Positions 21,650-54,500 of a stretch of 64,000 nt of DNA are shown here, in pieces (within the stretch, counting starts at the first letter, position 1; each line of letters starts with the position of its first letter). This DNA comes from Polytrichum commune (taxonomy: Eukaryota; Streptophyta; Polytrichopsida; Polytrichales; Polytrichaceae): positions 21,660,527 through 21,724,526 of the forward strand of contig OX485808.1 in the NCBI GenBank assembly GCA_950295325.1, given 5' to 3'. The notes under the pieces were generated by a model that searched no databases, was not told the DNA's origin, and saw nothing but the letters and a program-made list of their open reading frames with translations. The translations under genes and the position numbers were made by a program.

Positions 21650-22200
21650 AAGTATGGCACTACTCCGATCACCAACCTCACTACAACAAATAATAAAAAT
21701 CCTCAATATAATCATCTACCCAGGTATTGAATATGCCTTCTATGCCATCCCATTATTTGTCCTCAACATCCACAAACTTGATAAACACCTCATTAAACTC
21801 ACAAAATCCATCTATAATAAACTTAGAGACTCCCCTAATATCCTCACTCATTTACCCAAGATGCCTTTGGAATAGGTGTATTTTCTCTCCTCCCTCAATA
21901 TGCAACCACATTGAGTGAACAAGTCACCCAAACACTTAACACCCACCCAAGCCCACTATGACAAATCTACCAAGGACTAGTAAATTATGCAGTGAATAAA
22001 TTAAGAGGAGTGGAACACCTACCCTGTCTACTTTACCGAACAAACTCTAGGTCCCCTACCATACAAACCCTCTACATATTGAAAAAACACTACAATATCC
22101 ATATCGACTCCAAAGACACCACCTTCCCCCTTAACAAATCACTCCAAGGTAATGGTTGTTATAGAAGCCCATTCTACACTTCCCTCACTCCCCATTAGAG
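21650..22200 (+). pseudogene. LINE open reading frame, segment after the RT core
   Basis: The frame 21654-21875 contains LRSPTSLQQIIKILNIIIYP followed by GIEYAFYAIPLFVLNIHKL, and continues after a shift through 21992-22198 (QTLYILKKHYNIHIDSKDTT). The pattern resembles the part of plant non-LTR polyproteins between reverse transcriptase and the downstream RNase H domain. The assignment leans on the RNase H domain found about 1 kb later on the same strand. The 5' part, with endonuclease and RT core, is not present, as expected for a 5'-truncated LINE. Confidence 0.45.
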
Positions 22201-23125
22201 AACAAACATGAACAAATTCCTTAATAAATTGGCCTCATTCAACATCGTGGCCCTTCCCCAACTCTACGACCCTACCGAAACATGTATACTCCCCCCCCCC
22301 AAGCCCAAATACATAATAATTTTGGAAACTTCCAAACTAACATCTCATTAGAAAGATCAGCTTGGCTATGGGAAAAATACTCAACATATATATATCCCTA
22401 TCCACCCATCATATCTCCCCCTTGCCCCTCCAGACTTCGCTACATAAATACACCTCCTTATCAACCGCTACATAAAACCACTACTGTAGTAAGACATGCA
22501 CCCCCTACTATACCATCCATATTAACCACCACACACTCCCCTCATCAGTATTAGACAACCTTATAAAGACCTTCCAAGTCACACACTCATACTTCTCTAG
22601 CCCATTAACATGCCCCACAAATTTTACTCATTGTCATTGCCAATACGAAAAAAGATAGAATCTTTGGCTGACTAAGCCCAACTTTCTCCACCCAATGGAC
22701 AAGTAGAAGCTATGCTCACATCACGGACCTCAACCTCCTCCCTAAAGTCATCAAAAGGGCAAGGCTTGCAACCCTTTCCAACCCAAACTCAACCACAATA
22801 ATCACCTCCACTCATGATGATTGGACAAACAATAAACATAACCATGTTCAACATATGAATGTTACACCTATAGTATCATCCCCCCAACTCACTATGCATT
22901 CTCCCTCATCCCCATCCCTTCCTACACACTACTTTAATAAATAATCTATTCTTACCTCAATACCAATCCTTTTCCACAAGACCACCACACTCCTTCATAT
23001 ACATACCACCTACCCCACCACAAACGAACATGGCACAAAGCCCAACCTCCACTAATTACACCCCCACTTAATAACAACTCACCCCTCTCCCTTCATCCAT
23101 CATAACCTTACATCCACTAGGAATC
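22201..23125 (+). pseudogene. LINE linker region, decayed
   Basis: C- and A-rich sequence between the two recognised LINE segments, with short proline/threonine-rich frames (for example 22282-22554) and many stops. It is best read as decayed LINE coding sequence because composition and strand are continuous with both sides. No domain was identified. Confidence 0.35.
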
Positions 23126-23580
23126 CCCACCCACCTAATCATACTACGTAGACGGCTCCTCCACACCCCCCAACAGAGAAGGACATGGTTACATTGTAGG
23201 TTCAAAGTGTAATTAACGAACCAAGGAAGATCAACATTGTTGCCTGGTTGCCAAGATACCCAAATACCCTTCAAGCGAAACTATATGCATTACTTCATGT
23301 TCTAGAACACACTAAAATACTCACTAGGCACATACATATTCACCGATAGCCTAAATAGTATATACCTACTCCTTAACCACATCAAAACCCCTCCTCCCAA
23401 TATAACCAATGTAAGAAACTCCTCGTAGCATATATTATAAACACAATAAAGAAATCACACTACAACAACACCATCTGTAAAGTTAGAGCCCTCACAAATA
23501 TCGCAAGCAATGATGAAGCTGAAAAACTCACCAAAAAAGGAGCAGAAGAACCATGTATCATGATCACCCCCTTCAATCTC
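23126..23580 (+). pseudogene. RNase H domain of a LINE, frameshifted
   Basis: Ribonuclease H motifs appear in order across frames: YYVDGSSTPP (first catalytic Asp at 23151-23153), the AKLYALLHVLEHTK helix at about 23274 where the catalytic Glu lies, FTDSLNSIYLLLN (second Asp at 23345-23347), and RALTNIASNDEAEKLTKKGA at about 23484, where the family usually has a His in place of the Leu. RNase H degrades the RNA strand of the RNA/DNA hybrid during retrotransposition. A stop follows the first motif and at least two frameshifts are needed. Confidence 0.65.
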
Positions 23581-24632
23581 ATTCGTCACTCCACCCATAT
23601 TGGCCATCAATTCCCCCAACCCCCACTCAACATGACGGATCACTCCACCGCCTTAAAAGTTACATCAACAAAGAATGTGAAAGTGCATTAATATCTAAAG
23701 CAAAAACACACTCCCCTATTTAGACAAATGGCTCTCCAACCCTGACCTTCACCTAAAATAATCCAACCTCATTCTGGGACGCCCCTTGGATCATCAACAC
23801 ACAAACTACACAAACCCTCAAATTCTGATGCAACAAGTACTTAGGAAACTACAAGGGGACCCACACACAAAAAAGAAAGAAAGAAAGAAAGAAAGAAAGA
23901 AGTCCTTAAGCAAGACATATCTCCCTTTATATAACCTATGCACATCACAACAAATTGACACATCCCTCCACTTACTATCATGTTGTACAAACAAACACAT
24001 AAATAACCTAAGGACCAAGCAACACAACAAAGCAATACATGTACTGGCTAGCACACTAAATGCCATCCCAACAACAAGCTACTTCACACAAATCAACACT
24101 GGTAGGATGAATGACCAAACTCCCAACAACACCATACCATCATGGTCACTCCCATGCATTCCTAGATGCAAGTGCCCTACAAGATTGTGACCAAATATAT
24201 TATGCGTCCTCAGCGCACCCACCACAACCCAAACCTCCCCTCACACCAAAGCCAAACCTCAAAATACAAATATTCTAGTTCATCTACTGTAACACCAAAT
24301 TCCCCACTGAAGCCACCACTTGAAAATAGGATAGATATGTTGTACTATAACCACTATTAACCCAACCATGGGAAGTACTACCACCTATCATCATCCACTA
24401 CATGTATACGGGGAGCCATACATACCACAACAACTAAATGCCTCCTAGACCTCCATCTCCCCACCACCAAAATCCACAAACCAATGAAAACTTTCTCATG
24501 AATAGTCAAAAGATACTTAACACACATCAATAGAAAGAAATTAGAAAAGAAACAAGCCTTGATCCCTCTTCACTAAAGTCAACATCAAGTGATACATAGT
24601 TTAAGTTATTCAACTAACACTTACCAATGGTC
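23581..24632 (+). pseudogene. LINE 3' part, decayed, with an AAAG repeat
   Basis: The plus-strand traces 23786-24190 and 24166-24360 continue the C/A-rich composition of the LINE to about 24500. An AAAG repeat at about 23872-23900 has expanded inside it. No 3' tail or target duplication could be defined, so the end is approximate. Bases 24625-24632 are the target duplication of the following MITE. Confidence 0.35.
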
Positions 24633-30546: not shown

Positions 30547-30627
30547 TACCTTATGAGTTTTCCTATTCCTTTTAACTAAGTCGCGTCGATTCCAATATTC
30601 TATATGTCATTCATAATTGGAACAGTG

Positions 30628-33050
30628 TCACGGTATGCGGCGTTGGCGGCCGCACCTTATCTGTTGGATTTCATTCATTTAGATTTGGATGGATGAATCT
30701 TAGATGTGGAGAGGAAGGCTCCTAAGTGAGGAACCTCCTCCTTGGCTTGGCATTCTTGCCAAGTCAAGTCTTGTAAGTGAGTGTGTGCAGATAGCTTGTT
30801 TGAGATGAAGATTGCATGTTTTTGCAATAAATTTTGAGTTCTTATCCCTTTTCTTACATTCTTGGATTCTCCCGTGGTGGAGTGAGAGATAGCTTGACTC
30901 ATTGTGTACATTTGAAGAAAGAATTAAAGCTCTTACAAGGGTTTGACTCTCTTCCTTCTCACTTGGTAAGAATTGCTTCATTTTTATTTTTTTCTCCTTC
31001 ATTCTTGAGATATTACATGCAAGGAAGGGCGTGAAGATAAGGGGTGACGAAGTTGCGAAACGTTGGAGCGAAGAACATCACGGATTTGAGGATCAAGAAG
31101 AAGAAGAATGCCTACTTGTGAAGGCCACATCAAAGTGAATTGTAGTGAGATATCATTGATTTTTTTATAGAGTTTCTTATTACTCGGCCGTTTTCAAGCT
31201 TAAATTCATGCCATTGAGTTGTTAAGGCGAATTCTTGATGCTAAGTGAAGGAAAACTTTGATTCAAAAAAAATTTTGAAGAAGAAAGGGAGGGGAGCCGA
31301 AGCCCTTGGCCGGTCCTGTTCACTCTCCCTCCGCAGTCGGCGGCTATTTCGGCGGTAGCCAACAACAATTGTGTTTTATTCCATATTTTATTTCAACAAC
31401 TAATTTTTACTCCATGGGACTTGGGGTCATGTCCCGTTGGTCTTCGGGGCCGGAGTAATGATTAATAAGGACGGTTGGGGGCATTCGCATTTCATTCTCC
31501 TGGTGAAATTTGTGGATTTATGAAAGACGAACAGTTACGAACACATTTGCCACAAGTGTTCTCATTGATCAATAACGAAATTTTGGGCTCAAAGACGATT
31601 AGATGCCGTCTTAGTTTCAACCGTAGACGATGTTGAGGACAGGTTTACGGGTTTGAAATTAATGACCTTGGAATTACCTTATGAGATATTAAGGATGGAA
31701 CATCACGGGAGGGGTTCGCGGAAGCACCCAGGAACAAGCAGAGGGCGTGGAATTGTGGCAAGCTTGCGGTTGGCTCACTCTTCTTCCACATCAAGTTTTA
31801 AGGGGTACTTGGCATAAGATGGGGTTTTCATTTTCTTTTGCTTGAAAGAAAAATAAGAAAAAAATAATTAAACAATCATACACTTGTTTCTTGGGAGCGA
31901 GTTGAGGGCGTTGGGATTTTTTTAGAGGTATGTATATAGGATTGCCGAGGGATTGCCATTGAAAGTTGTGTGGCACATAGAATCACCATTCAATTTAACA
32001 ACATAGTTGTTAAGATTATAAATTGTGTTTAGCAACACAAATTCCGGGGGATTGTTGTGGGAGGGGATTTCTATGTTCTAGTGGGTATGAGAGATGTGCT
32101 TATGTGCCAATTCTTCTCCACGGCAACAGAGATATCTCATGCTTGACCACCAGTCGCAGACGAGTGCCGGTTGGACGCAGTCAATTTGAATTTTGCTTAT
32201 TTGTTGTTTGGGGAAGAGGATCTAGTGCTGTATTTGCATTGCTTTTCATGTTTCGTTGTCATACCTTCCCCCATGGAGGGTTGTGTTGCTGGACATTGCC
32301 AGCATTGCCCCATTTTGTGTTGTACTAGTTTGTAATAGGGTATTGTGGGGGTGAGGTCGGAGTGATGACCGACGAGACTTTTGTATGTACACCAAGTGGT
32401 CGGTGCTTATATTCCCTCATGGTGAGGCTGGAGTAATGACCAACACACTATAAGGTTGGTGATAATTGCAGGTGCAAGTTGTTTTTTTTAATTTTTTTTT
32501 CCTATTTTACCTTAACACCATAATAGTGTAGGTTGTTGGCTCCAATTACCATATTCATTATGGGTTTTTGGTTACAACTCGAAGCCAACATTATTGTTCA
32601 CCATCTCTAAGAGCGTCAGAAGGTCGATCATTGGACCTCTTAGACGTTGAATTAGTCGTAGAATCTGACGAGGCTTTTCGGCCTACTTCGGCGTAGGGGA
32701 CTGTCACTCGGTCACACATCCTTTGGGTAAGGACCTTTGACGATATGGAGGAGGAGATGCGAGGTGGAGTCCGAGACTGGTATTCTAGTCGAGCAGGGAC
32801 CATTTCCTTGCAAGACTGGAAAATTCGGTTTAGGTTGTGAATGCGTGAAAAACGTCAACGCAATACTACTTTTAATGACTGGTATGTGTTTGAATTTTTG
32901 CCCAACATTTGGAGTACGAAACAATCCAAACTTATGAGCAATGGAGGGACGCTCATTGGATGGAGCTGCGCTAGGTGAAGTGGTATTGGGAGACTCATGT
33001 GAAGTTGGTTTCCGCGTTAAAGGAGGATGCAACTTCTAGTTCATTAGGTA
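30628..33050 (+). other. 5' region of the Ty3/gypsy element; LTR not defined
   Basis: The segment starts TGTCACGG at 30628, a plausible Ty3 LTR start, and leads without any other recognised feature into gag. The candidate 3' LTR starts TGTCGAGG at 44000, but beyond the first dozen bases the two could not be matched by eye. No primer binding site was identified. Repeated phrases such as GGAGTAATGA...CC recur around 31452, 32360 and 32430. All frames are short. Confidence 0.35.
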
Positions 33051-34369
33051 TTCATGTGGTGAAAACGGAGCAAACAGAGAGCATCTTCGTAGTAGACGTG
33101 GAGAGAGCCTTTCCTAGTGAACCTTAGGAAAATTTTCATGTTTTCGCATCGGCAAATATTTTGAGTCCAATCTTTCCACTTTCCCGCTATGTGCATACTA
33201 TATAGGCGGCCTTAGCCTCCCTTGGGGCTCCGCCTGATTTCGATCATTTGCAAAAATTCCAGCTTCATTTGGAGGAGGAATATGGAGGTTTCTGCCATGA
33301 TCAAATATAGCGGACTCAAGACTTCTGGCGGGAGAAAGAGGACATACCTCGCATCATGTATACGAGGTTGGTAAGATTTGTCATCGAATATGGAGGTGTT
33401 TTCGCGGAAAGCCAGTTGGTAAAGATCTTTTTGTCAAAGACTGACAAATGCCTCAATTACTAAGCGTTGTCTAAGATCATCATGGATTATGGTGGCCGGA
33501 CGACACTTGCAGAGGCTTTTGCCATTGTTGAGCAATTTGATCGTGCCTTGTATCAGCATGATGCCATTGACTTGGTGTCCTTGTTAGTGGATTCTAGCAA
33601 ATCCCGGAAATTTTCGGTTGTGGCTGCAGGATTGGCGGAGGCAGAGATAGACAAGACTTTGTATTGTTGGTCTTGTGGGTAGGCGGGCTACGCTAAGAAG
33701 GATTGTCCATCACAGCAAAGGCAAGCCTAAACCGTAGGTAATACGAAGCGGAAACTAGTTGTTCCCACTAAGGATTCGACAAAGGGGACATGTAATCATT
33801 TACCCAAGCAGTTGAAGTGTTTCCATTGTGGGCGGAACATTCACGCGGTGGAGAATTGCTTCGCTCTCCATCTAGAGAAACATCATTCTTCCAAATGGAG
33901 AAAGGTGTTGGAGATGAAGATTGACACCTTAAAGGAGAGGTTCAAGAATTTGGCGTCATCCGGCCAAATCTTGGACTCACCATCTTCCTCTAGAGCTAAG
34001 GCTAGTTCTTTGACTCCAAATTATTATATGTTTGGAGTCTCGGGGGAGGTGGTCAGTTCCGCAGCGGTGATGCGTGTTCAATCCATGTCACGAGCCACGC
34101 CTTCGACCATAGGGGAGTCTGTCGACAACTTATGAGGTCGGGACAATGGTCCCACGGATTACATTGACCAAGTATGCCTACCATTGTCTTTTGGATTGGC
34201 AGATGCTGTCCAATCTGTAAGTGGTTGTAATTCGAGTGTAGATACTTCAAATCCAACGATCTACGTGGTGCACACTTTGGCATCTAAAGTGTTGCATATA
34301 CCTTTGTTTACAACGATGGAGTGGTCGTCATCCAACATCCAACCAACTAAAATTTTCCACCTAGCATGA
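33051..34369 (+). pseudogene. gag (capsid and two zinc knuckles)
   Basis: Gag packages the element RNA. The capsid-like trace is clearest at 33350-33682 (RLVRFVIEYGGVFAESQLVK, then IIMDYGGRTTLAEAFAIVEQ), with a stop at 33461-33463. The first knuckle at about 33666 reads CWSCG and then has a stop and Tyr where the family has His, ending KKDC. The second at 33818-33859 is intact in pattern, CFHCGRNIHAVENC (CX2CX4HX4C). The trace continues through a linker with stops to about 34369. The N-terminal part of gag was not resolved. Confidence 0.7.
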
Positions 34370-34373
34370 AGGA

Positions 34374-35195
34374 TTTTGGAAGGCAAGGCATCCCCGTCCT
34401 CCTCTGATTGTGGATCAAGCCACCGCAGACCTCTCTACCACTGAGGATCATGAGGAAGCGACCAGACGGCGAGCGTGGCTTGCAATAGAGGCCATTGCAT
34501 CTTTTGACGCACATGCCTCCGACGGCCAAATACTGATAACATCTTATAATTCACCAGCATCTGCGGGAGTAGCTTATCTATCAGATGTAGCTGCCGACCT
34601 GTTTGCAAGCGTTGAGGCATTTGACCTGGCGTCGTACGTATGCTGAATGATTGCGGTATTTTGATGTTCATTCGACTAGACGCAACATTATTCGGGTTGC
34701 TCCCAAGTGTGCGATGATGGATTTGGGGGCACAACCCGTTATGATCGGCAAAAACTTGCGTAGGAATTGCAGTTGATGGTTGACGACTTGGCTCCTTGCC
34801 CATTTACCATCGTCACATCCATTGGCCACGTGGAGCGGGCCATTGGTTATACTCGAGAGTCATTACAGAGTAGCTTCCGAATGAAGTCCGGAGATCCACC
34901 TGCACCTCTTCTTATTAGGTGTGCAGTGACGGATGCGACCAACTATGACATTTTAGTTGGTCAGCAAGCCTTTTACCCCCTCAGTTTTGATTTGGACAAT
35001 TGGACTGAGAATGCGTGGATCCGACCAGGTTGGTCGGCTGGAGATGGCCGCAAGAAACTTATTCCTGTGGCATTCGCGGTGGCTGCTACTATAGCACCCT
35101 TATCCATGGTTTTTGGATGTGGCGCTTTTGTTGACACATTGCCCTATGGTTCCGTATTGTTGGAGGAGATCATTGGCATTTATGGGGAGTTCTGA
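34374..35195 (+). pseudogene. Aspartic protease region
   Basis: After a linker (34410-34646) the trace at about 34709 reads CDDGFGGTT in one frame and MMDLGAQPVMIG in the next, the latter matching the protease active-site triplet D-S/T-G-A with Leu in place of Ser/Thr. It continues through 34767-35195 with TNYDILVGQQAFYPL at about 34938, the usual downstream ILVG block. In the family it cleaves the polyprotein. Frameshifts separate the active site from the rest, so it is not functional as read. Confidence 0.65.
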
Positions 35196-35379
35196 GGATC
35201 AACAGGAGATGGCACCTAAATATGCATTGGTGTGCCATCCCAAGGATCCTCTTCCTCCTTGGCGTGATTCCGCCGAGCTACTCCGTGGTGTGAGGACATT
35301 ATCCTCTCTCTCGCCTCTATGACACCGGTCATACCAGATAGCCCATTGGCGTTGCCACACCCCATTGTGTGGCGCCCGC

Positions 35380-38050
35380 CAGACGCGAGAATTACGTTGA
35401 TGAAACTGTTTGGGGGCATCGGAACATGATTGGTGGCCATGTTGGAGGCTGGCCTCACGGTTCAATAGTATGTCTATGTGAACAACAATCACGTGTCCAC
35501 CTGTGTGGCTCGCCACCATTTCCACCAGTTGATGGTGTTGTATCCATAGCAGTTACACCCAACATCCATTCGTGGGTGTTTTGCACGTCTTTTTTGTGAT
35601 GTTACACTTATTGTCGCAGAAACAAACTTATGACATTTGGGTCCGGTGGATATGGTGATTGCGGGATGGCCCTACTAGGGCCACTCATGTGTTGGGGCAG
35701 GCCGAGGTTTAGAGGATCCCAGGTCTAGTCTATTCTGGGACCTCATCTTGCTCATGTAGGTGTAGTTTGCCCACCAATCTTTTCCTCTAGGGTATATCTT
35801 TGAGAATGTACATTTGTTGGGAGCTCTCGGGACAAGGTGTTGGAAGGCCGACATTATGTTTGTCAGGACCTTGGAGATCCCATTTTTGTGGATGCCGCGA
35901 GCCTTGGTTCTTATGTCCACCGGCCTCGGTGGATTTGGACGAACCTCGCACCGCTATTCACTTTAGCTGCAACATTTTTTGCAGTGCCTCTACCTTTTGA
36001 TTAGAAGGTGGATGACATCTTGGATCAAAACCAAACTTCTTTGCCAGTTCTTTGAGATGATTTATCCCCGTTGGCATTGGTTAACAAAGTGGGGGCACCA
36101 TGGAGGGTCTTTTCCACTGTTGTGACGTTTCCACAATCATTTGCATTCTGTGATCGGGGGTCGGGTATGGTGTGGTATGCTCACACCAAAACTCACACCG
36201 GACCATTGGCTGATATGAGCCCAAAATGGTATGCTCATATGTGCTTAGTGTTAGTAACTGCACAGTAGTTAGCATTGATGCTTCCATCAAATTATATAAA
36301 ATATAAAAAGAGTGCAAGCTTTAGTTTGGGGTTGAATTACTTGTAGGAATGATAGGTGGGTTTTGATGCTTTTAAGTTTGGAATTTAATTATTATAGGGG
36401 AGTTAGCTAAGTGGTGGGCTTAAGTGGTAAGGTTGTAGGCTGGGGTTAAGTAGCCGAATAGAGCTTGATTAATGTTCATTCAAGGGGGCTGGCCACTGCA
36501 CCCTAGTGAAATCCGGGGCAGCGGACAGGGCAGTTGGAAGTCGGGAGGCACGAAGGTTTTTTCTCTCTCTCTTGACGGCTGGAAGGAGCGGGGGCGAAGC
36601 CCTGCTGGAGAGGCGTTAGGATTACCGCTACAGGGGAAACAAGGATTTGAGGTTCTGGTGCGGGGATGCTGCTGGGCATAGGGAAAGATCCTCGACTGCA
36701 GGTTGTCACGGCAAGGGCAGGGTAAGCATTCTTTGAGGGAGAGAGGGAATCGACATTATGGCCGAATCTGGCAGGGAGGTAATGCTTTCAAACTGAGAAT
36801 TGGGGGCTGTCCTCAGAGAGGGGGAATTGGCGAGGTGTGAGCTGGGCCTAATGCAGGCTTCGGGGGAATCGAAGGAGGCTGCCTGGTCTCGAACCGGATC
36901 TCAAAGATGGATACATATGCAAGCTCTGTTTTGGGTCGCCAAGATGTATCAAGGAAGGAGGCATGTTGTAGCCTGGACTACATCACAGAGTGGGAGAATG
37001 CAAGGCGAGTTGAATTAGTTGCGGCTTGCTCGAATCTGAGGTAACAGCCAGCTGAAGAGAAGGAGGAGGCGATTTCAGTTAAGACAAGTTGGATGGTGGG
37101 AGTCGAAGCTGCCTAGTCGGCATAAGGCTATGGGAATGCTGGCCGCATCCCTGACTCATACCCACAACGACAAATCAATCTCGATCCAGTAGCGGAAGCT
37201 GGAGTAGGCACTTCCTCGGTCTGAGGAGTTGCGAATTCAGTCAAAATTGGAATCAGGAGCGAGGAGGTAGACTGTGGCGAGGAGGGAGCTGGCTTCGAGG
37301 GCAATGTCAAGGCAACGACTAAGAACATGGCCTTAGGGGACTCACTGTGCTAGGACAGAGGTCGTGACTAGCTGAAGAACCAAGGGCTAGGGCTTGCTAC
37401 AGTGGGACTTACCTCGAGGGTGCCGAGACCAGGGGAGCCCTTTGGCCAGGTGACAGTAAGGGGTGCGGAAGGAGGACAGTAGGTATCAAGGGAAAGGTTT
37501 GATCTGGACTGCCGAGGGACCTCTAAATGGACCGGTCCAGGGAGTAACCAACTGCTAGTTGGGGGTTAAAGAAGGAGGATGGGAATTAGCAATTAGTTTA
37601 GCTTAGGTATTATATTAGGGATTAGAGTAATGGGTTAGGTTTAGTGAGGAGGCCGAGGAATACAACAGTATTCTTAAATACTTGTGGGTTTTGTGGACGT
37701 GTTGAAATAATAATAAAAAGAGTGGAGTGTTAAGATTATTATTGGGCACCAAGGATGGCTGGTCACGATTACAAACTATCATTCACGAGCATGTTAGCCC
37801 TGAACTCTCACCTGGATTACGACGCCTAAGGGTGGGGGTTTGGGGCTGACAGCTGACGAACGGGAGCATGCCATGGGATTCCGCACTGGCACCACCGCAA
37901 CTCCTGGCCTTTCTGAGGGCCAACGACGCTTCGTGTTGGGCCGAGCCATGGATCTCCATACCATGATGTGGACTGTTAATTTATGCCTTGCATTGCAACG
38001 ACATCATGGTGACCAATTGTTGTCTCTGGGGGCAGAGGATTCTGGTTAGG
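35380..38050 (+). pseudogene. C5 cytosine DNA methyltransferase domain, interrupted
   Basis: Motifs follow the canonical order. Motif I (AdoMet binding) is LMKLFGGIGT at 35403-35429, followed after a stop by MLEAGLTV. Motif IV is VDMVIAGWP at 35646-35672, where the catalytic PCQ has become Pro-Tyr-stop (Tyr codon 35673-35675). GAGRGLEDPRSSLFWDL follows. Motif VI, FENV, is at 35799-35810, motif VIII, HRPRWIWTNLA, at about 35918-35950, and motif X, GFRTGTTATPGLSEGQRRF, at about 37873. A 1638-bp element splits it between VIII and X. It sits between protease and RT, as part of the polyprotein. Such enzymes methylate cytosine in DNA; this copy has lost its nucleophile. Confidence 0.85.
36214..37851. 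mobile_element. 1638-bp insertion, probable solo LTR
   Basis: It is flanked by a perfect 5-bp duplication GCTGA (36209-36213 and 37852-37856), the size made by LTR-element integrases. The right end is TTTGGGGCTGACA; the left end TATGAGCCCAAAA is its imperfect inverse, so the ancestral start was probably TG. No coding domain, internal LTR boundary or second LTR was seen, hence solo LTR. Its sequence is unrelated to the host element. Small frames inside (36472-36709, 37128-37328) are ignored. Confidence 0.65.
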
Positions 38051-38069
38051 GGCATAGCGGTTCACATCC

Positions 38070-39060
38070 ATGGAGGAGGAAATTGATGTCATGATTGAAA
38101 AAGCCGAACAAATCTTTCAATTCGAGCAGCAAGTGATGGAGGAGCTCCGAGTTCAACGGATTTATACTCCTTTGGCTTCTTCACCTCCGGTGGTGGTTTC
38201 ATCATCAGATATTGGTGGTGATGAAGAGGGGACTGACTCTATTGCTAGCACTGAGGTTGGGGCAATGGTTAATGCCCCCTCCTTTCAATAGCAGTCAGAG
38301 CCCGTTCCAGCATCATGTGGATTCTCTTTGGTGGAGAGGAAGACTACGGAATTTGATGATTGGCCATTGGAATTAAGCCCTCATCTCACTGGTGCCAAGG
38401 CACGGAAAATACAAGTGTTTATTCATTCATACCGTAGGTGTTTTGCTTTTAGCCTTCAAGATCTTGAAGGTTATAAAGGAAAACCCATCTACATTCAGTT
38501 GGAGGACGACCGTCCCATTTTTCGGAGACCTTATAAGTTCAGTGTTTCCGAGCGGATTGGCATTCAAGCTCGTTGCCGAGAGCTCTTGGCACCAAGGCTA
38601 ATCGAAATTTCCAACGGGGAGTATGCTTATGCTACGGTTATGCCATCGAAAAAGAATATCTTTGGCAATTGGATGGAGAAGCGGATGTACGAGGATTACT
38701 GTCCAGTTAATCGGAAGACCAACTTGGATCGGTATTCCATGCTGATACCAAAAGAGTTGTTCGATGCTATCAGATTTTATCAAATCTTTAGCACCCTAGA
38801 CTTGAGATCCGCCTATCACCAACTCCCATTACTTGCAGGTTATTGACTGAAAACCGTATTTTGGGAAGTTGATCATGATGGAAATGATCAATTGTATCAT
38901 TGGGAGTTTCTTCCATTTGGCCTCAAGAATGCGTTTGCTAAGTTTCAGAGAATGATGGACCAAGTCCTCTCTGGTTTGCCCTTTGCTCGGTGTTACATTG
39001 ATGACGTGATCATTTTCTGCAAAACACTACAATAGCATGTAAGACATCTGCAAGCCGTTT
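38070..39060 (+). pseudogene. Reverse transcriptase
   Basis: An acidic linker (38070-38291) leads into the RT domain, open from 38328 to 38846. Seen in order: the fingers region (YKGKPIYIQLEDDRPIFRRP), motif A (FSTLDLRSAYHQLP, about 38787), a stop at 38844-38846, motif B (FLPFGLKNAFAKFQ, about 38910) and the catalytic YIDD (about 38995-39006), then a stop. It makes cDNA from element RNA. After HLQAVF (about 39045-39062) the thumb is missing and the sequence jumps to RNase H, an internal deletion of roughly 100 or more codons. Confidence 0.85.
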
Positions 39061-39480
39061 TTTAGCGGCTCCAGTGCTTCGACGTCCGGATGTCTCCAAA
39101 TCTTTCCAGTTGCATACAGACTGGAGCTCATTGGATTTGGGAGCAGTCTTCACTCAGAAGAATGATTTTAGCCGAGAGCATGTTGTTGTTTACACGTCGC
39201 GAAGCAACAATACGGCGGAGGTCAATTATTCGTCCTATGAGGGAGAAACATTGGCGGCGGTGTGAGCTATTGTCCATTTCCGGCAATATCTTTATGGTCA
39301 GCGCTTTATTTTGGTAACTGACCATCAACCGTTACAGTGGCTCATGGAGTTGGATAAGCTTATTGGTAAGCTCGCCAGATGGGCTTTGTTGCTCCATGAG
39401 TATGACTTTGAGATGGTGTAATGTGCTAGGATTACCAACCTAGATGAAGATGGACTCTCGTGCAATCCAAGTCCTTTGGA
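39061..39480 (+). pseudogene. RNase H of the Ty3/gypsy element
   Basis: It continues from the RT deletion with SKSFQLHTDWSSLDLGAVFT (39098-39157), where the first catalytic Asp lies in HTD, then YSSYEGETLAAV (catalytic Glu in YEGE), a stop at 39263-39265, then ILVTDHQPLQWLMEL (second Asp in TDH), and WALLLHEYDFEMV followed by a stop. The order and spacing match Ty3/gypsy RNase H. The front of the domain is lost in the same deletion that removed the RT thumb. Confidence 0.8.
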
Positions 39481-40092
39481 TGAGGACTTAACCAGGGCCA
39501 GGTGGCATGGAAATTGTGATCGAGAGGCGGTTCCAAGTTGGCACGCGGCTGCTTACCTCACTTTATTTTCTAGTGTAGCTATTGAGGTTCCGATGCATGG
39601 CTCGGATGATAAGACTGATCGACCTCAAGCTATCGCGGATATATGGGAAGATCTACCCGTATTGCATAAGCTTCAGCAAGGGACCTTTCCTTTGTCTACC
39701 TCGTCAATGGAAAGGGATAGAATTGGACATCAAATAACAAGGTTCCATTGGTAGAACGGTTTGTTATTTCGATTGTGGCCGGATGGGATAAGGCGTATAT
39801 ATTGTCCCTAGGCCGGATCAGAGGGCGTCTTTGGTGCGACAAATGCATGAGGAACTTGGCCATTTTGGCATACGCAGGACACATTCGATATTGCGTGGCC
39901 AATATTGATGGACTGGCATGTATTGACAGGTGGTTGTTTATGTCGGGAGGTGTGAAGTTTGTGACCAGGTCAAGTCTAGCTTTAATACCTTGTCACCTCA
40001 GTTACAACCCTTACATATCATGGGATTGGGCTACCGTTGGTCACATGACTTTGCAGGACCGTTGGTTGTCACACCACATGGAGCAAAGTACG
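39481..40092 (+). pseudogene. Integrase, zinc-binding domain and start of the core
   Basis: In one frame at about 39830-39962 the HHCC zinc domain is visible: HEELGH (His codons 39846-39848 and 39861-39863) and CEVC (Cys codons 39951-39953 and 39960-39962), with stops at several Trp or Gln positions between. The core starts with the first catalytic Asp in DFAGPLVVTPHG (Asp codon 40047-40049). The domain is cut at 40092 by a 2.64 kb insertion and resumes at 42736. Confidence 0.8.
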
Positions 40093-42730
40093 TGTGGTAC
40101 AACTTTTTGGTCTCAGAATAGTCATTTTAGGATTTTGATAGGATGTGAATTCATATCGACACTCGAAATGTGAAATGGACACTAAAGTAAGTCATTAGTG
40201 ACCAATTATCTGAAGTGAGCTAAGGGTGAGACATTTAGTTCATATGAAACAGTTTCCAAGAGGAAGAGTCTTTTGGGCAGGGCAATAGACATGTGACCAA
40301 GTCGAAGAGCCTTATGAAATCTGGCCCCAAGAGGCAAGGAAGCTAGTTCAGGGGATATAGAGGAGAAGGGAGAGAGGAGAAAGTAGTTCCTCTCGAGAAG
40401 AGAGTCTCCCTCGTCTTGCAGTTTTTGAGTGAGTCTAGCTTGGGTGTGAAGCCCTTTTAAATGTACATTTTACTCTACATAATATCATAAGCGTGAAGCT
40501 TTATTATCACTTGTGTGTGTGAGGATTAAATGTGTTGTGTTGGTGCTGGTCGTGAATCGTTTACATCAAATTTGTACTTCCCTGGTTCGGGAAGAATCCA
40601 TATTGAATTTGTGATACCTTATTCCTGTGAAGGGAGTGAGTCTTAATGTGTGGTTGTTTCTCTCAAGGGAATTGAGAGGAATTGCTTGTGGGAATGTTGA
40701 GTCTCTTCTGAGAAGGAAGAGATCCTTCCGGGTTCATCGAAGTGAATGGAATTCCATGAATTGTCTTGAAAGCCTCTAGTTGTAATAAGTCGTGTTGTGA
40801 ATGTATCTAAGTACGATGAGGACTTTAACAATGTAATCCTGTGAAAGGAGTTTGTCTGAGAAGATACACGGATTGTGTCTTGAATCCTGTCAAAGGAAAT
40901 TGGGATAGTTTGTAAGTGTCCCTCTGTCTGGTGCATAGAATGTCAGAGGGAGTTTCTGTCACCGTGCTACTGCAGTTGATGTTGCAACATATTCGTAGGT
41001 TTCAGAAGTGTGAACACCTACTTTAGTCGAAGGGAATTGTCCACAAATTGAAGTGGTTTTGCAGAATAAGTCTGAGGGAACCTCAAGTGTAGAATTCTAA
41101 CACCTGTTTGAGTTCAAGTATGATGGTGCGGTGCATTCCTCTTGAGAAAGGAGTGAAAATAACCACCGCTTAATCTTATGAGTACGGTGAGAAGTAATGT
41201 TGTGTTGTGTGTCGTCTCCCTTGGTAGTGAAGTGAATGAATCTTGTGAGTGTGAAGTTAATTCTCTCTGGGTGTGTTCGGCCATGTGATTTGGCTGTGGC
41301 AATCTTGAGCTATCTGATGTGAAGTCAGAGCAAATGCTTAAGCACCAACTTTTCACCCAATCTGAAATTCCGATAAGTGCGCACGTTGAGATCGAAATCC
41401 TGTGAAAAGAGATTGAAAAGTCTGTGAGAATTAATTTGTTCAAACTATAATCTTGCACAGAAAAAGGCGAGGGAAGCAACCTCTTGTTTGTCTCCCCTTC
41501 TCAGAGAAAAGGGTGGGGAATTGAATTGAAGTCGAATAAAGTACTGAACCGGAATAGGAGTAACGTTTGGAAATATCAGTTTGATCAGTCGGAAACGGTG
41601 TTCATAAATGGAGAGAAGATGCCCCTCAGTTTCGGAATCGATCGCAGTCTTGACGGGAAAATGGAGCATGCATTATCCCTTAAAAATCTGTGAGATTACA
41701 GGTATGGAGATGGCTGGATGGTGATCGCAATTACATCAGTGAAGGAGCCTGAGAGAGTTTTCCTTGTGGAAAGATGCGACGGAGACAATGCGGTGGATCG
41801 CGGAGAAGTAGCTGTGGGGGAGAATTAAGCCGCCCATTAACCCATATTGTTTGGGTGAGGCTGGAAGGGCACGCATAAAAGGAGAAGTGGCCAGCATCAC
41901 ATTCGAGAACTTGACGCTGACTTGGTTACTGGTGACTGGCTATTTGTTACTGGTTACTGGTTACTAAGACTATGGCCCTCTCTATGAGACGTGACTTGAC
42001 ATTGGTTACTTGTGACTGTTACTGGTGACTAGACTATGGCTGTGCCGTGCAGACTATGGTCCTACCGATTAGACTCTTACGGTCCCGGTCCGGTTCAGTT
42101 CGCTTCGCTTAGACTCGGTCACTAGGTTACTGTCACACGTTAGACTTTGTTAATTTCAATCATTTATTTTAATGCATTCAATTCCACTGTGATAGTGTTA
42201 AGTCTAAAACTGACTAAGGAAATAATTCATTTCTGTGGTCTTTATCTAATTTAATTTAATCAATCACTTAACCATAGGAGGAGTCAATTGTGAACATGAT
42301 ATCCTTACTAACTGTGGTGTGGCCTTTTGGTACTTGGTTACTTTACTGAAGAGACTATGGTTCACTCAAGGAGTTCATGCCTTGGGTTTTCTAAGACTAT
42401 GGCGTAACCAAATGACAATGGCTGAGCTGTGACACCTTGAATTGCAAAACACATTATAAGAGTGATGTTAATGACGAGAGTGGGTTGTGAGGGAGTGACT
42501 GATCAATTGCATGTACCGCTGTGAGTGACCCTCAACTTTAATTGAATCAATCCTAAAACTTGCTCTAGAAGTCTTCTTTCCTGTGTTTGTTGTCCTAAAT
42601 TCGTTATAATCCCCTTGTAATCTATCAATTAACTCAATGGTGATCCCTAGATGTAACACCTGACACTCATTTGGTCTTCCCTGTGTGGTTTTCTTAATTG
42701 GAACCCAATCTAAAAACCTATCTATAGTAC
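40093..42730. mobile_element. 2638-bp non-coding insertion in the integrase
   Basis: It is flanked by a perfect 5-bp duplication GTACG (40088-40092 and 42731-42735), and removing it rejoins the integrase frame. It starts TGTGGTACAAC and ends CTATCTATAGTAC. No transposase, RT or other domain was found. The left half repeats a CCTGTGAAAGGAG-like phrase (about 40623, 40838, 40886, 41399), and 41920-42150 is rich in GGTTACT and AGACTATGG. A large non-autonomous retroelement or a solo LTR is the best guess; a primer binding site was not identified. Confidence 0.6.
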
Positions 42731-42735
42731 GTACG

Positions 42736-43240
42736 TGTTGGTAATGGTGGAGCATTTTAGCAAGTGGATTGAGCTTGTTGTTCTACCCCAAAATTCTATA
42801 GAGTTGGCCGCGGCCGCCTTTTTGGACCGTATGTTGGCACGTTTTAGAGCACCGGCTGAGGTATTGACAGACCAAGGGAGGGAGTTCTTCGGTGTTTTTG
42901 AGGAGTTGTGCACTAAGGCGCTCATAAATCACTGCACCACCTCTCGGGATCATTCGGAGGCGGATGGCTTGGCTGAACGGGTTGTTCAGACAACCGAGCG
43001 TGACTTGAGGAAGTATGGATTACTTTGGGAGAGCCACCGGGATTGGGATCTTATGCTGCCTTGGATTGCTATGGGTTATCAATTTAGTATGTAGGCCTCT
43101 TTGGCGTCCTACAACTTATATCAGTTGTTGTATGGACATGAGCCTATACTCCCGAGTGCTATTCGGAAAAAACTAGCTCATGTTGTAGATTCGGATGACC
43201 CAAACATTTGGGCAGAGTGTTTGCAGGAGCGGGCTTAATT
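42736..43240 (+). pseudogene. Integrase core, second part, and C-terminal segment
   Basis: It resumes the core with LVMVEHFSKWIELV. The second catalytic Asp is in VLTDQGREFF (Asp codon 42870-42872) and the Glu in DGLAERVVQT (Glu codon 42975-42977), 34 residues apart, completing D,D,E with the Asp at 40047. After a stop at 43093-43095 the trace runs through the family's LYGHEPILPSAI block to about 43238. It would join cDNA to the host genome. Confidence 0.85.
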
Positions 43241-43249
43241 CTTCTAGAG

Positions 43250-43730
43250 GGCCATGCCTTTGGCCATGGAGAATTTGTCCATTCCTCAGTTGCGGAGATT
43301 CCGACTAGGTGATTATTTTTATCTCCAACGTGAGGCGCCTACGACATTGGATGTCAGGACGGGCGCACTATCCTTCAAGTGAAGGAGGTGTTGCTGAGTG
43401 GTTTGTTGTTGTTGGAAGACAATGATGGTAGGGAATGTCGTGAGCATTCCAAAAATTGTGCCCCATGTCATCTACCCATTGAGGGTACAGTTCATCATGA
43501 ACTGGCCGTCGTGCCAGAGGGTCTTCCATGTTTTGTGTGTGGAGAGAAGAAAAGAGCGGTTATTATGCTCTTGTGTGATCAGTGTCAACGTGGTTGGCAC
43601 ATAACATGCTTGAGGCCACCCTTGACTTCTCTACATCTGGACAGTGGGGTTGTCCTCGCTATCAAGGATCTTCAGTACCTAGTGCTTCCACCAATCGTAC
43701 TCAATGATCTTGTGTAGTTTTCATCATCTT
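43250..43730 (+). pseudogene. PHD finger at the C-terminus of the polyprotein
   Basis: After a short integrase tail, a zinc finger of the PHD class is seen at 43529-43665: CFVCGEKKRAV, MLLCDQCQRGWHITC, then, after a +1 shift, SGQWGCPRY. The pattern is CX2C-X11-CX2C-X4-H-X2-C-...-W-X-C-X2-Y, so only the last Cys is lost. PHD fingers read histone tails. Here it lies where other Ty3 elements have a chromodomain and could bias integration to certain chromatin (inference). The trace ends near 43717. Confidence 0.8.
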
Positions 43731-44252
43731 GTGCATGTCCAAATGGAAAATGAGGAGTTATGGCTTAGAAACGCAATCAAACATGAGACGGTAGAATTAA
43801 TTCTTTGGATCTGATTGCCAAACATCAGAGGCGATTGTGGATGGGGCTCACACTGCACCCAACCTACAATTCCTTGGAATGACGTTCACCACACTAGTTG
43901 GTTGCGGAGCAATCCTTCATTATCCATGCGGAACAACCCTTTGGATTGGCATTGGTCTTAGCTGCTTGGCGGGACTCCATAGTCAACTAAGGGGGGGCAT
44001 GTCGAGGTGTGTTGTTTACGTGTGACTTTGCTATGTTTTAGTGTTGTTTGTTAGTGGTGGTTGGTACTCGAGCTGCAGTAACACACGATTGTTATTTACA
44101 CGACAACAGTCATTTGTAATGAGCATTCCCCAAACTAACTCAAAGATTCACGAAACTATAATAATCACACGGACCATACTTATGTTGATCATAGTCAGTG
44201 TAGGGAGATAACATTAGCACACTGCAGACACATTTCTTCATACACACATAAC
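43731..44252 (+). other. 3' non-coding part, polypurine tract and possible 3' LTR start
   Basis: The segment 43740-43988 may still be decayed coding sequence but shows no domain. AAGGGGGGGCA (43989-43999) followed by TGTCGAGGTGTG fits a polypurine tract and LTR start. The LTR end could not be found, and the candidate LTR is probably truncated before the MITE at 44256. Confidence 0.45.
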
Positions 44253-48550: not shown

Positions 48551-51500
48551 CTAGAGAGGAGCCATGCAACCCAAATTAAATTCAAGCCGTAGAGTGTCAT
48601 AACATTGAGTCACTATGGGAGTTTGCCCTCTATAAGTGTTAACATTTATGTTATAATTTGAATTTTTAAATTTTTTTAAAGAATTTTTTACCTTGTAATA
48701 GAAATGTTAACACTTGTGGGGGCAACACTTATAGAGGGTAGACTGTACCATTAGTTGTCTTGCATTAGAGTCTGGAAGCATTTGAAATTTATGAATATGG
48801 ATAGGAAATCTATCATCATGGTAGATCATTAGACTATCCAGTGGGAAAGAACTATAGTAGTGGTAAGGAACCATGATTCATGTATTCATGATTCTTTTGC
48901 AACATTAATTATTCAATTATTAATCATGATCTTCGCTCCCTCTGTTATTTAGGTTCATTTTGAAATCAAAGGATCAACCTACGCACTTTGAAGGTTTGAT
49001 TCATGGACATCTTTATGTAAATATTCTTTGGACTCAGTGAGCAATTTGAGTGAATTGGAGAATGTTATGAAAGTGTGATTCATCCCCACTACAATAATCT
49101 TAGTCTTTGACGATGGCAAATCAAATGCTACCATGTAAACATGATTACAAAGTTGTCAATCACCACCCCTTGGAGCAAGGAGATGGGCATCGATATCTAA
49201 GATGCTTCTTTGATGAGTATTTGTGTGTTCGTTAACATGCCTTAAGCATCCACTTTGGTAGTTGGTTGTTAGCTTTTAGTCTTACTGAGTCCCATTGCGT
49301 AGTAGACTTATTGGTTGTTTGTACTTTGAGTAAGGCTTGCTACCAGTCATTGTCAAAAGCGAGATCCATTTCATAACAAACAAGAGTCTAGTTGCATCTA
49401 CCTTGAAGCAATGGCCGGAGAGAACTCACCGCTAGTTACAAATGAACCAGTTGGGTTTGAGAAATAACTGGTTGAAAGTCAAGATTTCCCATCATTTTAG
49501 AGGAATCTATGGAATTACCTCAAATACGTAAAGAAAAAACTGAAAGATGTCAACCTGTAACCGTTTGGATTTGAAAACACTAGGATCTCAACCGGTTATG
49601 CCCAAAAATCTCCCTGGACACTGCCTTGAAGCAAAGGCTAGTCATTTCTTTAAGCCTTTACAATCTCAATACTTAATTGTCTAATCATTATTCACTGTTT
49701 ATTAGTACTGTTGTTGCTCATACCTAATACAAACATAATCTAATCATTTGTAAAGAATTTCCCTAGATTTCTTTTTGTATTTTTCTGCACCTTTCTCACA
49801 AAAATGGGACTCGAAAACGCTGAGATGTTACAGAATGTGTTCAGGACACAGCTTTTTAGACAGGCGTATTTTACAAATATTGTAAGAATCACACAAGGGT
49901 TAGGATTCGGGCTGTACGAAGGCATCTCTGTGGACCCTTGCAGAATATGAAAAGAAGCTCACAAGGACAATTTTGTGGAGAGCGCTGGCCCTCGAAAGGT
50001 TTATTTCATTGTATAGTTCATTGTTTGTGGCTGGCCCTCCGAATGTGCTAACACACTTTTGTTATTGATTTGTGCAAATGATGACATGATTCCTGGTGGA
50101 GCTCTTTTCAAGCTAAGAGATTTACTCCTGTCTACCTACACCAACTTGTAAATGCTAAGGTATGTCAGCCTTATGTGGGTACTCTTCTCAATCAGAAACC
50201 TATATTTAAGTGATATATGGCAAGTTACGTGTGTAGTTAAGGACGGACACCAAGATGACAGGTGTTATGATGAGATTGCCTATATGCTCGAAAAAACCCA
50301 TTCCAGGTTCAATAGTAACACAATTGGGAGGACCTATTTGAGCAAGAACCGTAAGGTATCTGGGTGTTATTCAGTTACTTTTCTTGATCAGACACAATAT
50401 TTGATTGGTGTGTGGTGAGGTGAGGGTCAAAGAACAAACACCATAAAGACACATGTTTAAAACAGTTTGCGCTACATCTTCAAATTCCTTTTAATCATTC
50501 CACATTCAGTAGAGAACACAATTGGGAGACGACTTAAGTATTCAGTTAAACAATCAACAAACATGCACTTCCAATAACCATACCTAAATAAGAGGAGGTC
50601 CGATTTTCAATCCGGATTTTTCTGATCAATGCTTCATCACAGATTCGCAAGCGAGTGCAACATCACAAGTTTCGTTGTGTAAATCTAATTGGTAAGAGTT
50701 GGAGAACTAGGAAAACTCACCAAATAACTCCTGTATACCTTATACAGATGGAAGAAAAGGGCTTGTAATATATTTACCTTCCGAGCATCATGACAGTGGC
50801 TTGCGGGTTAGTCCCCGGGGAGCGTCGGAAAGTGGAGCCATCAATCACACGTAAGGCTCCAACACCCAACACTCGGTAGTCGCGATCTACCACTTGCCCG
50901 ACAACGCATCCGCCATGGTAATGCCAAATGGTGGTCAAGCTATCCTTGCACCATTGCTGGATGTTGAGCGTGTCTTGAGTCTCATTATACAAGTCACGGG
51001 GTGGCCATGTGCTATCGATGGCAAGTTTCACCGGTTGGAGCTCTGGAGGAACTGTGTCGTCTGTGTACATCAGCGCCTGGAACCTGTTCGTGGTGGTGGC
51101 CTGTAAGATGGTGCGCGTGCCCTGGACGCACGTGTCGAGGTCGATCTGCTCTTGGAAGTAGTTGAATCGCACGCTAGGGTTTTCGCTCACGTTCCGGCTG
51201 ACCAACAAGAGCTCCCCCGTTGATTGCGGGCCCCATACCTATGAAGAGGGGGGGGGGGAGGTTGGATCGCTAGTTAGAGATGAGTCAGTCAAGTTTGAGA
51301 ATTAATCGGTTCAATTTCATCCAGAGTTTTGGTGAATTGCCAATGATTTTAGAAGAATAGAGTTAGAGAAAGAAAAGAAGAAGAAACTTTGGTGTTTGTG
51401 CACTGACGTGAATGAGAGCCCCGTTTACCTTATACTGATCATGGTGTTCCAAGATGCAGAATAAGGTGTATGATCTTCCTTTCGGAAAATGAGCTCTACA

Positions 51501-54500
51501 GGTAGAAGAATAGAGTTATCCTTTTAATTCAACTGGAGTTTTGGTTGTATGCAAAACAACCAACTCCCACCCAAAACTCGAACCGGTTGAATTAAAGGAT
51601 AATTTTGATATGTGGAATATACTTAAAGCTTAATAACGAAAAACCGAAAGGAAATCAACATGCTGGAAACATCAGTAGGATCTGGACTGAGATTGAGCCC
51701 AAATTCTCCCCATTCATTGCAGGCCCACACCTTCTGGAGGATGCTCCCGCCATATGCTGCACGGGCCTGGTATGCCCTTGGAAGGGCGGCGATCGCACCG
51801 TAGATCCGTCTGTAAAGAGACGCCGCCGTTACCGAGTCATTGTTCAGCTTTTTAGGGTTGATGTGTCCTGTTTCAGGATTAATAAACGTGGTAGTCGTAG
51901 CTGCTGTTGGATTGAGATTCTTGGATACCTGGCTGCTTAGTAAGACCGTTTGATCCTGAGACTTGCTTGCAGTTGCAGTTGCTCGCCAGCTTGACACAGC
52001 CAACTGGGCTTGCCCGCTGGCGACCTCAATGTAGCTCCCAAAGCTCGTGATCCCGACCACTTGAATGAGTGTGGTTTCGACCCGTCGCCGGGTGAGCACC
52101 CACACGGAGTTCGTCGGGTTGTCAGCCATTGAACCCCCCACAGCACTGTTGTTGACAACTGTGGGGATATTGAAGGAAGACAAGTGGTCGGCAGGGCCAA
52201 TGCCACTCAGCATCAAGAGCTGTGGGCTGCCCAGTGCACCTGCTGAAACGATCACCTCGCTCGCGTCGTTGCCATTCAATAGCGCCGTGTGATCGTTTCC
52301 GTCTAAATCCTTATACAGAACTCCAATCACCCTCGGCTCTGCGCAATTTGCTCAAGGATGAATTTCGGTAACTGATCCCTTTGCTTCATGTGCTCAACTT
52401 TTGGGAGAGGGGAAATTATCGCATGTGAGCGTACCCTCTCATTCATCCAACATAAGAACCCGAAACAGTTTGCAGCCCGGAGGGTTCTAGTTTTGATCGA
52501 TTTGACACTGGAATTAGCTTCAAAGGCCTTGAATTAGTGTCGTCCGAAACATTTGAGATGAATCAGCCATGAACTTATAGGAGATCAAGTTTTCATGTTG
52601 GGTGGATGATAATTTATAATAAATGTTATTTGGTAGCATAAGTGGTAACCAAAACTACACTAAAAAACTTTGATTTACTGTGGCCCACACTATTCATCGT
52701 CAACCTGCATGAATTGTTTTGTATTTCTAATCACTGGTTGGCAAATGGAGAGGATGTCACATGACATTTGATACTACACAACAAGTTGTGAAGACCATTG
52801 TAATGAACAAGGCGGACCACATCAATGTTTAGTGTAGCTATTGATGAAAGTTATTTAGTAGGAGACAATATCCAAACCTAGTTGCCGGCATCCCAAATCA
52901 AACCAAATATGATACTTGGGATGCAGATTTGTAACAATCAATTCAAACCCCTTTCATTAGACCAGATGATGTATGAGAGATCCATTCAACAAATTTTATA
53001 GCCCGGTACTACCTTCATTGCTTTTATTAGATTCTTCATGCACTAAGGTAATTAAGCGGGCCTAGTTTAGTTACTCGGACACCTCTATATGAATGATGGG
53101 TGGGTATGTGTATATCTAAGAATGAAAGGCGTCATGTGTTCAAAAGAGATTTGACTACATGCTCAAAATCTGGTAACCATTCTAAGTTGAACAATAAACA
53201 TAATTGGGGAAACTTATGTGGCTTTTTTTTATGGCCCATTGTTAGTGGACTTTGATAATTCATATCAATCGAAGATTAGCTCCAACACGTCATTTTGGGA
53301 GTTATCTTGGCTTCTAAGTTACATTTGCAGCGCACATAAAATTGAACCTCGCAAATTTGAGCAATGCACTTTAACCTCCCTAATATCATGCATGTGGCAA
53401 ATAAAGTGCATGTGATATTAAGGAGGTTTGTAGTGTTAACATAGATGCATGCTAATAGAGAATTAGTGTAGCATGTGACAAAGTCAACATTGCAATAATG
53501 ACAATGATGACAACATGATGCATACCAACGTGTGGTTTGAATTCTTTGACGGATTATTTCAATCTCAAAACCCATGATATATGAGAAGGAAATGTTACAA
53601 CAAGAACAAAGATTGAAACTGAGAACATGTATTCCCTAGGGTTTCAGGTTATGAGAGAGGGAGTGACATTACAAAGGTTAGGATGTATAAGGTAGCAAAC
53701 AGTGAGAAAGTAAGCAAATAAGGCCTGTCTACGATACAGCCATAGTATCTGACCAGGTGATGACAGCATGGAGTCAATGAATTGGGTCAAAGATTGTAAT
53801 TCAGATACCATACCTGATGAATTGGTGTCAAAGAGCAGTTGGTGTGCATTGGCCCAGATGTACACTGTCAGGTTGCTTGGATTCGCATAAGTTAGAAGGT
53901 CAGCTGCAGTGTGGCGATGACCGGTGCTGTCAAAAATGGAGCCACCAATCTTGGTGCCCACCATGTGTTCATATGTGCCGCCGTTATAAGGAGTCACTCC
54001 CGCTTCCAACAATGCATCCCTCGCCGCTGTCTGGAAATAAATCAACACTTGATTTTTTTGCTCGAATACTTGTTACATAATAATCTCCCAGTAATCAGCT
54101 CAAATCCAACTTGTGAATTGTAGGTGGGGATCAAGTTTTGACGTTTTCAGCTAACAATAACAACTACTCCCTCTGTTTCAAAATAAAATTGTGGTTTCTA
54201 TTTCAGTGCGGGATTAAGAACAGTGACCGGATTTGAACCACAATGCGCTTTTTAACCAAAATTGGGAGTTGCCGAAAAGTTGCCGACGTCTCTGTCATGC
54301 CCGGAGGAGGTCCGTAACGAAACCATGGTTTTATTCTGGCACGGAGTTTATGCAGAAACCATGGTTTTATTGTGAAACAGAGGGAGTAGTAGCCTTAAGA
54401 CACCTCAGGCCCATTGTGGGTGCCTCTTCGATCTTGGATCAAGAGTGGGGAGGGGCAGTATGGGCGTAGGCCTTAGGATCAGAATTCTAAGATAGAGAGC

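Follow-up and report, generated by a model that had tools for sequence, protein, structure and literature searches.

DNA methylation marks normally silence jumping genes, and a methyltransferase carried by such an element is therefore surprising. Retrotransposons with a cytosine methyltransferase have nevertheless been described. The closest known to us from the accessible part of the literature is KnitGypsy-Dnmt3 of the alga Klebsormidium nitens, which combines a DIRS-like repeat structure with Gypsy domains (PMC5890265, Figure 4 legend). Its methyltransferase showed no activity in yeast, a result that the authors call inconclusive (PMC5890265). The dinoflagellate elements SymbioDIRS-Dnmt3 and SymbioLINE-Dnmt likewise carry a cytosine methyltransferase but differ in being a DIRS element with a tyrosine recombinase and a LINE, respectively, and the authors describe independent captures (PMC5890265). 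Why a transposon should carry an enzyme of the class that normally silences it is a question left by that paper, as far as its accessible text goes. Among plant elements, Ty3/Gypsy retrotransposons of orchids have also gained a nucleic-acid modifying enzyme, although theirs is an m6A RNA demethylase domain, which acts on RNA (PMC9289625, accessible part).

The family described here, whose host is most probably a moss, resembles KnitGypsy-Dnmt3 in having Gypsy domains, a Dnmt3-type methyltransferase with its motifs in canonical order inside the polyprotein, and purifying selection on that domain (PMC5890265, accessible part). The comparison is one of descriptions, not of sequences, and on this footing it supports the likeness to a charophyte kind of methyltransferase retrotransposon that was proposed in a preliminary description of the locus. 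The two differ in host, an alga in one case and most likely a moss in the other, and in the PHD finger of the moss family, the word PHD not occurring in the accessible text on KnitGypsy-Dnmt3. The UAG-CAR-YYA junction and the 4-bp target duplications measured in the moss family also set it apart from KnitGypsy-Dnmt3 as described there (PMC5890265). Methylase transposons have been said to be absent from land plants (PMC6338049, accessible part), and in the accessible part of a further paper retrotransposon DNMT3 is mentioned just as earlier reports in streptophytes and dinoflagellates (PMC12344493). In the open-licence literature, as far as it was accessible, we found no description of bryophyte elements of this kind (titles and starts of abstracts), and no prior description of a UAG-CAR-YYA context between methyltransferase and reverse transcriptase (RT) or of 4-bp target duplications around split repeats.

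The decayed element and its copies in the genome

The window, that is, the whole stretch of 64,000 nucleotides analysed, contains a single decayed Ty3/Gypsy-type retrotransposon at 30626-44105, with ACAG on each side. Its bounds come from alignment to L017/L018, the nearest of the copies fetched from the same genome, to which it is 80-89% identical across long coding blocks. With L017 the identity is 80% over 32020-36213 and 86% over 37852-39074, and the methyltransferase lies between the protease and the RT. The features, in window coordinates, are as follows.

30622-30625, no strand: left 4-bp target duplication ACAG (alignment)
30626-30960, plus: terminal repeat segment A, 87% to A of L018
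33464-34135, plus: part of gag with zinc-knuckle-like residues (frame reading and L017 alignment; nothing above the Pfam cut-off)
34767-35195, plus: protease region, aligned to L017 (no Pfam match in the window)
35373-35838, plus: methyltransferase piece 1 with motifs I-VI, an altered catalytic Cys and seven in-frame stops (PF00145, E 3.3e-5)
35831-36213, plus: methyltransferase piece 2, motif VIII region, in a frame different from piece 1 (frame reading and alignment; no Pfam match alone)
36214-37851, no strand: nested repeat insert of 1,638 bp within the methyltransferase (alignment gap, 5-bp repeat at its ends; recurs elsewhere in the genome)
37852-37950, plus: methyltransferase piece 3, motif IX/X block, in a third frame (frame reading and alignment; no significant Pfam match alone)
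38289-38297, plus: TAG CAG TCA, putative leaky-stop context between methyltransferase and RT (TAG CAR YYA here in 21/21 copies)
38292-39036, plus: part of the RT, decayed (L017/L018 alignment; 38292-38846 without Pfam match)
39066-40093, plus: RNase H and first part of the integrase, 89% to L018 149-1172
40094-42730, no strand: second nested insert (alignment gap, 6-bp overlap)
42731-43385, plus: integrase core (rve, 1.4e-10 for 42714-43094)
43505-43642, plus: PHD finger, interrupted by a frame break (PF00628, 1.7e-8 and 7.6e-8 in two Pfam runs)
44000-44105, plus: terminal repeat segment B, single, with no A2-B2 after it, 95% to B of L018
44106-44109, no strand: right 4-bp target duplication ACAG (alignment)

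This copy is dead, with a frameshift, stops and a changed catalytic cysteine, and the anatomy of the element is best taken from its relatives. The preliminary description had reported C5-methyltransferase motifs in canonical order between the protease and the RT of one element on the plus strand, and frame-by-frame reading confirmed this. The profile check that it proposed gave 23.9 bits for 35373-35838 against the curated PF00145 cut-off of 22 (E 3.3e-5), despite the seven stops. The interval of 35380-38050 that it assigned to the methyltransferase holds for 35373-36213 and from 37852 onwards, whereas 36214-37851 is the nested insert. The PHD finger behind the integrase (PF00628, 1.7e-8) was absent from that description. 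The first insert itself has 40 scored places in the genome out of 545 candidates, mostly partial, and both its ends were found again at many genome sites.

The genome searched was an assembly of 407.8 Mb, in which the window is 21660527-21724526 of contig C6. Seven large contigs make up about 406 of 408 Mb; rbcL is on contig C8. A PF00145 profile search gave at least 123 scored methyltransferase places out of 353 candidates, and a search with the RT at least 126 out of 1644. Less decayed copies, whose presence had been anticipated, were found, and 14 full copies were fetched as adjacent stretches; they were picked mostly for long open frames and form a non-random sample. By tblastn all 14 contain the methyltransferase, RNase H, integrase and PHD finger. 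In the five copies examined for reading frames ORF1 is 1372-1386 aa long; three of them have an open ORF2 and two a broken one. Pfam searches of L013/L014 and L017/L018 identified the methyltransferase (1.3e-11 and 1.2e-11), followed by RVT_1, RT_RNaseH, Integrase_H2C2, rve and PHD, together with a weak protease below the cut-off and, in one of the two, a weak zinc knuckle. The RT, RNase H and integrase (rve) are thus in the order of a Ty3/Gypsy-type LTR retrotransposon, and full copies with the same arrangement support the placement of a cytosine methyltransferase domain inside a Ty3/Gypsy-type polyprotein.

A host methyltransferase gene lying by chance beside or inside one Ty3 copy could produce such a picture solely if the decayed window copy stood alone. 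The arrangement is alike in 14/14 full copies, at separate sites and each with its own target duplication, and it is also found in other species. Related Ty3 copies that lack the domain had been named as grounds for rejecting the proposal. We chose 20 RT places by eye from those without a methyltransferase in the PF00145 genome listing, and 19 of these 20 have a methyltransferase within 3 kb upstream. It is partial in three of the 19 (326, 121 and 217 of 330 residues at L040, L044 and L047). For the twentieth place the PF00145 genome search has a same-strand match some 3.8 kb upstream. The 14/14 full copies and 19/20 RT places rule out a chance neighbour, an explanation to which we give next to no credence.

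A land-plant host, also proposed earlier, is supported by the LEAFY domain, from which a moss is most likely. LEAFY has four matches in the genome. One of them has a DNA-binding piece whose nearest PDB chain is 4bhk (3.7e-31), which we take to be Physcomitrella LFY1; both have Asp at a position that is occupied by Asn, His or Gln in the other chains listed.

Class, distribution and constraint of the methyltransferase

Both its sequence and its predicted fold mark the methyltransferase as Dnmt3-like. C5-methyltransferase motifs I, IV, VI, VIII and X are found in canonical order. A sequence search of the PDB places DNMT3A/3B at the top (1.3e-11; 1.2e-19 in a profile search). An AlphaFold model made with seven sequences has a mean pLDDT of 82.0 and a pTM of 0.83, and the best 50 of its 204 Foldseek matches (E up to 0.001) are all DNMT3 structures. 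Among eukaryotic DNMT3 and plant DRM enzymes the best match by both sequence and fold is therefore DNMT3A/3B. The moss enzyme differs from these in sitting in a retrotransposon, in having PCQ or ECQ where the DNMT3A alignment has PCN, and, unlike DRM, in not being rearranged. Of 40 copies, 14 full and 26 partial, 31 have exactly GWPCQG as motif IV; it is changed in six and unaligned in three. An origin from DRM or CMT was considered and rejected on the profile scores, which are 1.2e-19 for DNMT3A against 6.8e-11 for 4onj, 1.7e-10 for HhaI and 1.7e-8 for DRM2. The chain 4onj is named merely DNA methyltransferase in the match list and is presumably a plant DRM; among the PDB matches listed, none bears the name DNMT1 or CMT. 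Capture from bacteria may be less likely: the named bacterial protein P0151 (3e-7) falls outside in the tree, but this is a quick tree with long outgroup branches. Host DNMT is represented in that tree by a single DNMT3A row of half length, whose branch is long.

Protein searches gave 235 relatives, most of them metagenome proteins, with named hosts that include Marchantia polymorpha, Calypogeia fissa, Closterium, Haematococcus lacustris and Monoraphidium neglectum; no Klebsormidium sequence is named among the 235. Two relatives, P0072 and P0212, are filed as bacterial (Obscuribacterales and Minisyncoccia) and probably stem from eukaryote DNA that was assigned to bacterial genome bins. The relatives are in liverworts and Closterium and, with a different domain order, in chlorophytes. 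According to phmmer the methyltransferase is before the RT in 19 of the 235 proteins and behind the RT or RNase H in 101, of which 77, including those of Haematococcus and Monoraphidium, have the order RT-RH-methyltransferase-integrase-PHD; the other 115 have no RT or RNase H by which to judge the order. In a tree of the methyltransferase made by a quick method (103 rows), the 71 rows with the methyltransferase behind lie on one side of a branch with an SH-aLRT of 91, and the 19 rows with the methyltransferase before the RT do not form one clade. In a tree of the RT and RNase H (73 rows), which is without Marchantia because none of its RTs is long enough, the two domain orders are split with a support of 99 (7 versus 66 rows). 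Both trees part the two orders alike, which suggests that the methyltransferase and the RT have travelled together.

Constraint was estimated as dN/dS over nine copies, with the minus-strand loci L001, L005, L006 and L007 left out. For the methyltransferase the ratio is 0.20, 0.24 and 0.32 within subfamily 2 and 0.43-0.61, on few changes, within subfamily 1. Between subfamilies it is 0.08-0.13 where dS is finite and otherwise saturated, so that these values are rough. The RT has lower ratios in comparable pairs, the methyltransferase being the less constrained of the two. Differences of the C-to-T or G-to-A type between the window copy and L017/L018, with the change on either side, are found at 154 of 793 CG positions and 480 of 3652 positions elsewhere, an excess at CG that is as expected for decay under methylation. 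CpG depletion was not seen in the element stretches tested, where observed/expected is 0.66-0.72 against 0.63-0.74 in two flanks, and there is thus no footprint of self-methylation.

These results bear on whether the methyltransferase might be a passenger, captured once and hitch-hiking on a successful element without contributing to its cycle. Its weaker constraint relative to the RT, the ratios within subfamily 1 and the absent CpG footprint would fit this idea. The low ratios between subfamilies and within subfamily 2 are against it, as are the retention of motif IV in 31/40 copies and the presence of the domain under both domain orders in green plants and algae, and we regard it as quite improbable.

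The UAG junction, the split repeats and a proposed cycle

ORF1 encodes gag, protease and methyltransferase, and ORF2 the RT, RNase H, integrase and PHD finger; the two are in a common frame with a single TAG between them. At this junction of methyltransferase and RT, TAG-CAR-YYA is present in 21/21 copies (14 full, six partial and that of the window), and we take it to be a leaky-stop context of the TMV type. The 21 contexts come from two subfamilies, between which synonymous divergence is saturated, and the window copy, and they therefore amount to few independent observations. In the relatives P0025 and P0026 the frame is continuous, so the stop is not universal. To judge from the reading frames, a leaky UAG would put the methyltransferase in the abundant Gag-side product. 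Such a position would permit contact with RNA. The enzyme might act elsewhere than on new element DNA: on element RNA, on host DNA in trans, or in taming the element for host tolerance. RNA methylation and host benefit are both raised in the accessible discussion of PMC5890265, but the moss enzyme is nearest to DNMT3 and not to DNMT2, and we consider a target of this other kind unlikely.

All 14 full copies and the window copy (15/15) have a 4-bp target duplication around TGTCA...GACA, and TG...CA ends are present on the copies. The repeat layout is A - coding - B - A - B in 11/14 and A - coding - B in 3/14 and in the window; the ordinary layout of LTR - internal - LTR was not found in the 14 full copies. 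Split direct repeats are a feature of the DIRS order. However, no tyrosine recombinase is among the Pfam matches of L013/L014 and L017/L018, which have an rve integrase instead, and target duplications are present where none would be expected in the DIRS order. The 4-bp duplications around the split repeats thus point to a DDE integrase. The inner junction of B and A contains GACAGCTGTC in 11/11 copies. The integrase would need DNA that begins with A and terminates with B; as these two ends adjoin in a circle, a circular or end-joined substrate may serve. The combination of split repeats, DDE integrase and target duplications means that the replication route needs explaining. A1 and A2 are 97.9-100% identical in 10/11 copies and 94.6% identical in the eleventh (two mismatches and three gap openings). 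This near-identity indicates young insertions, and the copies dated in this way are mostly young.

The best PDB relatives of the PHD finger (best 60 of 96) include fingers of CHD4, PHF12, KAT6A, PHF21A, KDM5, ATXR5 and UHRF1. Several of these read the N-terminus of histone H3, and the PHD finger of the element may accordingly serve in targeting integration.

We consider it probable that the window holds a dead copy of a young moss family of Ty3/Gypsy type which encodes its own Dnmt3-class methyltransferase, and which would use it as follows. Ribosomes would mostly stop at the UAG, so that the methyltransferase is about as abundant as Gag and enters the particle; occasional readthrough would yield the RT, integrase and PHD finger. 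Newly made element DNA would be methylated by this enzyme ahead of integration or in the course of it. Insertion would be the task of the DDE integrase, and not of a tyrosine recombinase, acting on DNA that begins with A and terminates with B and that may derive from a circular form, and the PHD finger could bias insertion by reading the H3 tail. New copies might benefit by entering as chromatin that is methylated beforehand and passes as self, or the cDNA might be protected, at the cost of silencing. Against this scheme are the missing CpG footprint, the weaker constraint on the methyltransferase than on the RT, the two broken ORF2s of five, the few independent lineages behind the 21 stop contexts, the continuous frame of relatives such as P0025 and P0026, and the inactivity in yeast, judged inconclusive, of the closest published enzyme (PMC5890265, accessible part).

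More tentatively, and with clearly less confidence than in the scheme itself, we speculate that the family belongs to a green-lineage clade older than land plants with a kit for writing chromatin. The kit would consist of a Dnmt3-type methyltransferase that is translated as abundantly as Gag ahead of a leaky UAG, a DDE integrase with a PHD finger that reads H3, and DIRS-like split repeats, which this integrase would insert by acting at a circle-like junction of B and A, each copy arriving methylated and aimed at chosen chromatin. With at least 123 methyltransferase places in a genome that most likely belongs to a moss, and with relatives in Marchantia, the question of the transposon-borne methyltransferase becomes testable, since mosses and Marchantia are good laboratory plants.

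Elsewhere in the window there are exons of a plant-type GMC oxidoreductase at 50777-55772 on the minus strand (PF05199, 3.1e-25; PF00732, 9.4e-9), with mandelonitrile lyases of plants as their best relatives in the PDB, and a hAT transposase dimerisation piece at 9748-10077 on the plus strand (PF05699, 8.8e-9). The stretch 22001-24000 has a strong strand asymmetry, with a GC skew of -0.52 and an AT skew of 0.22.
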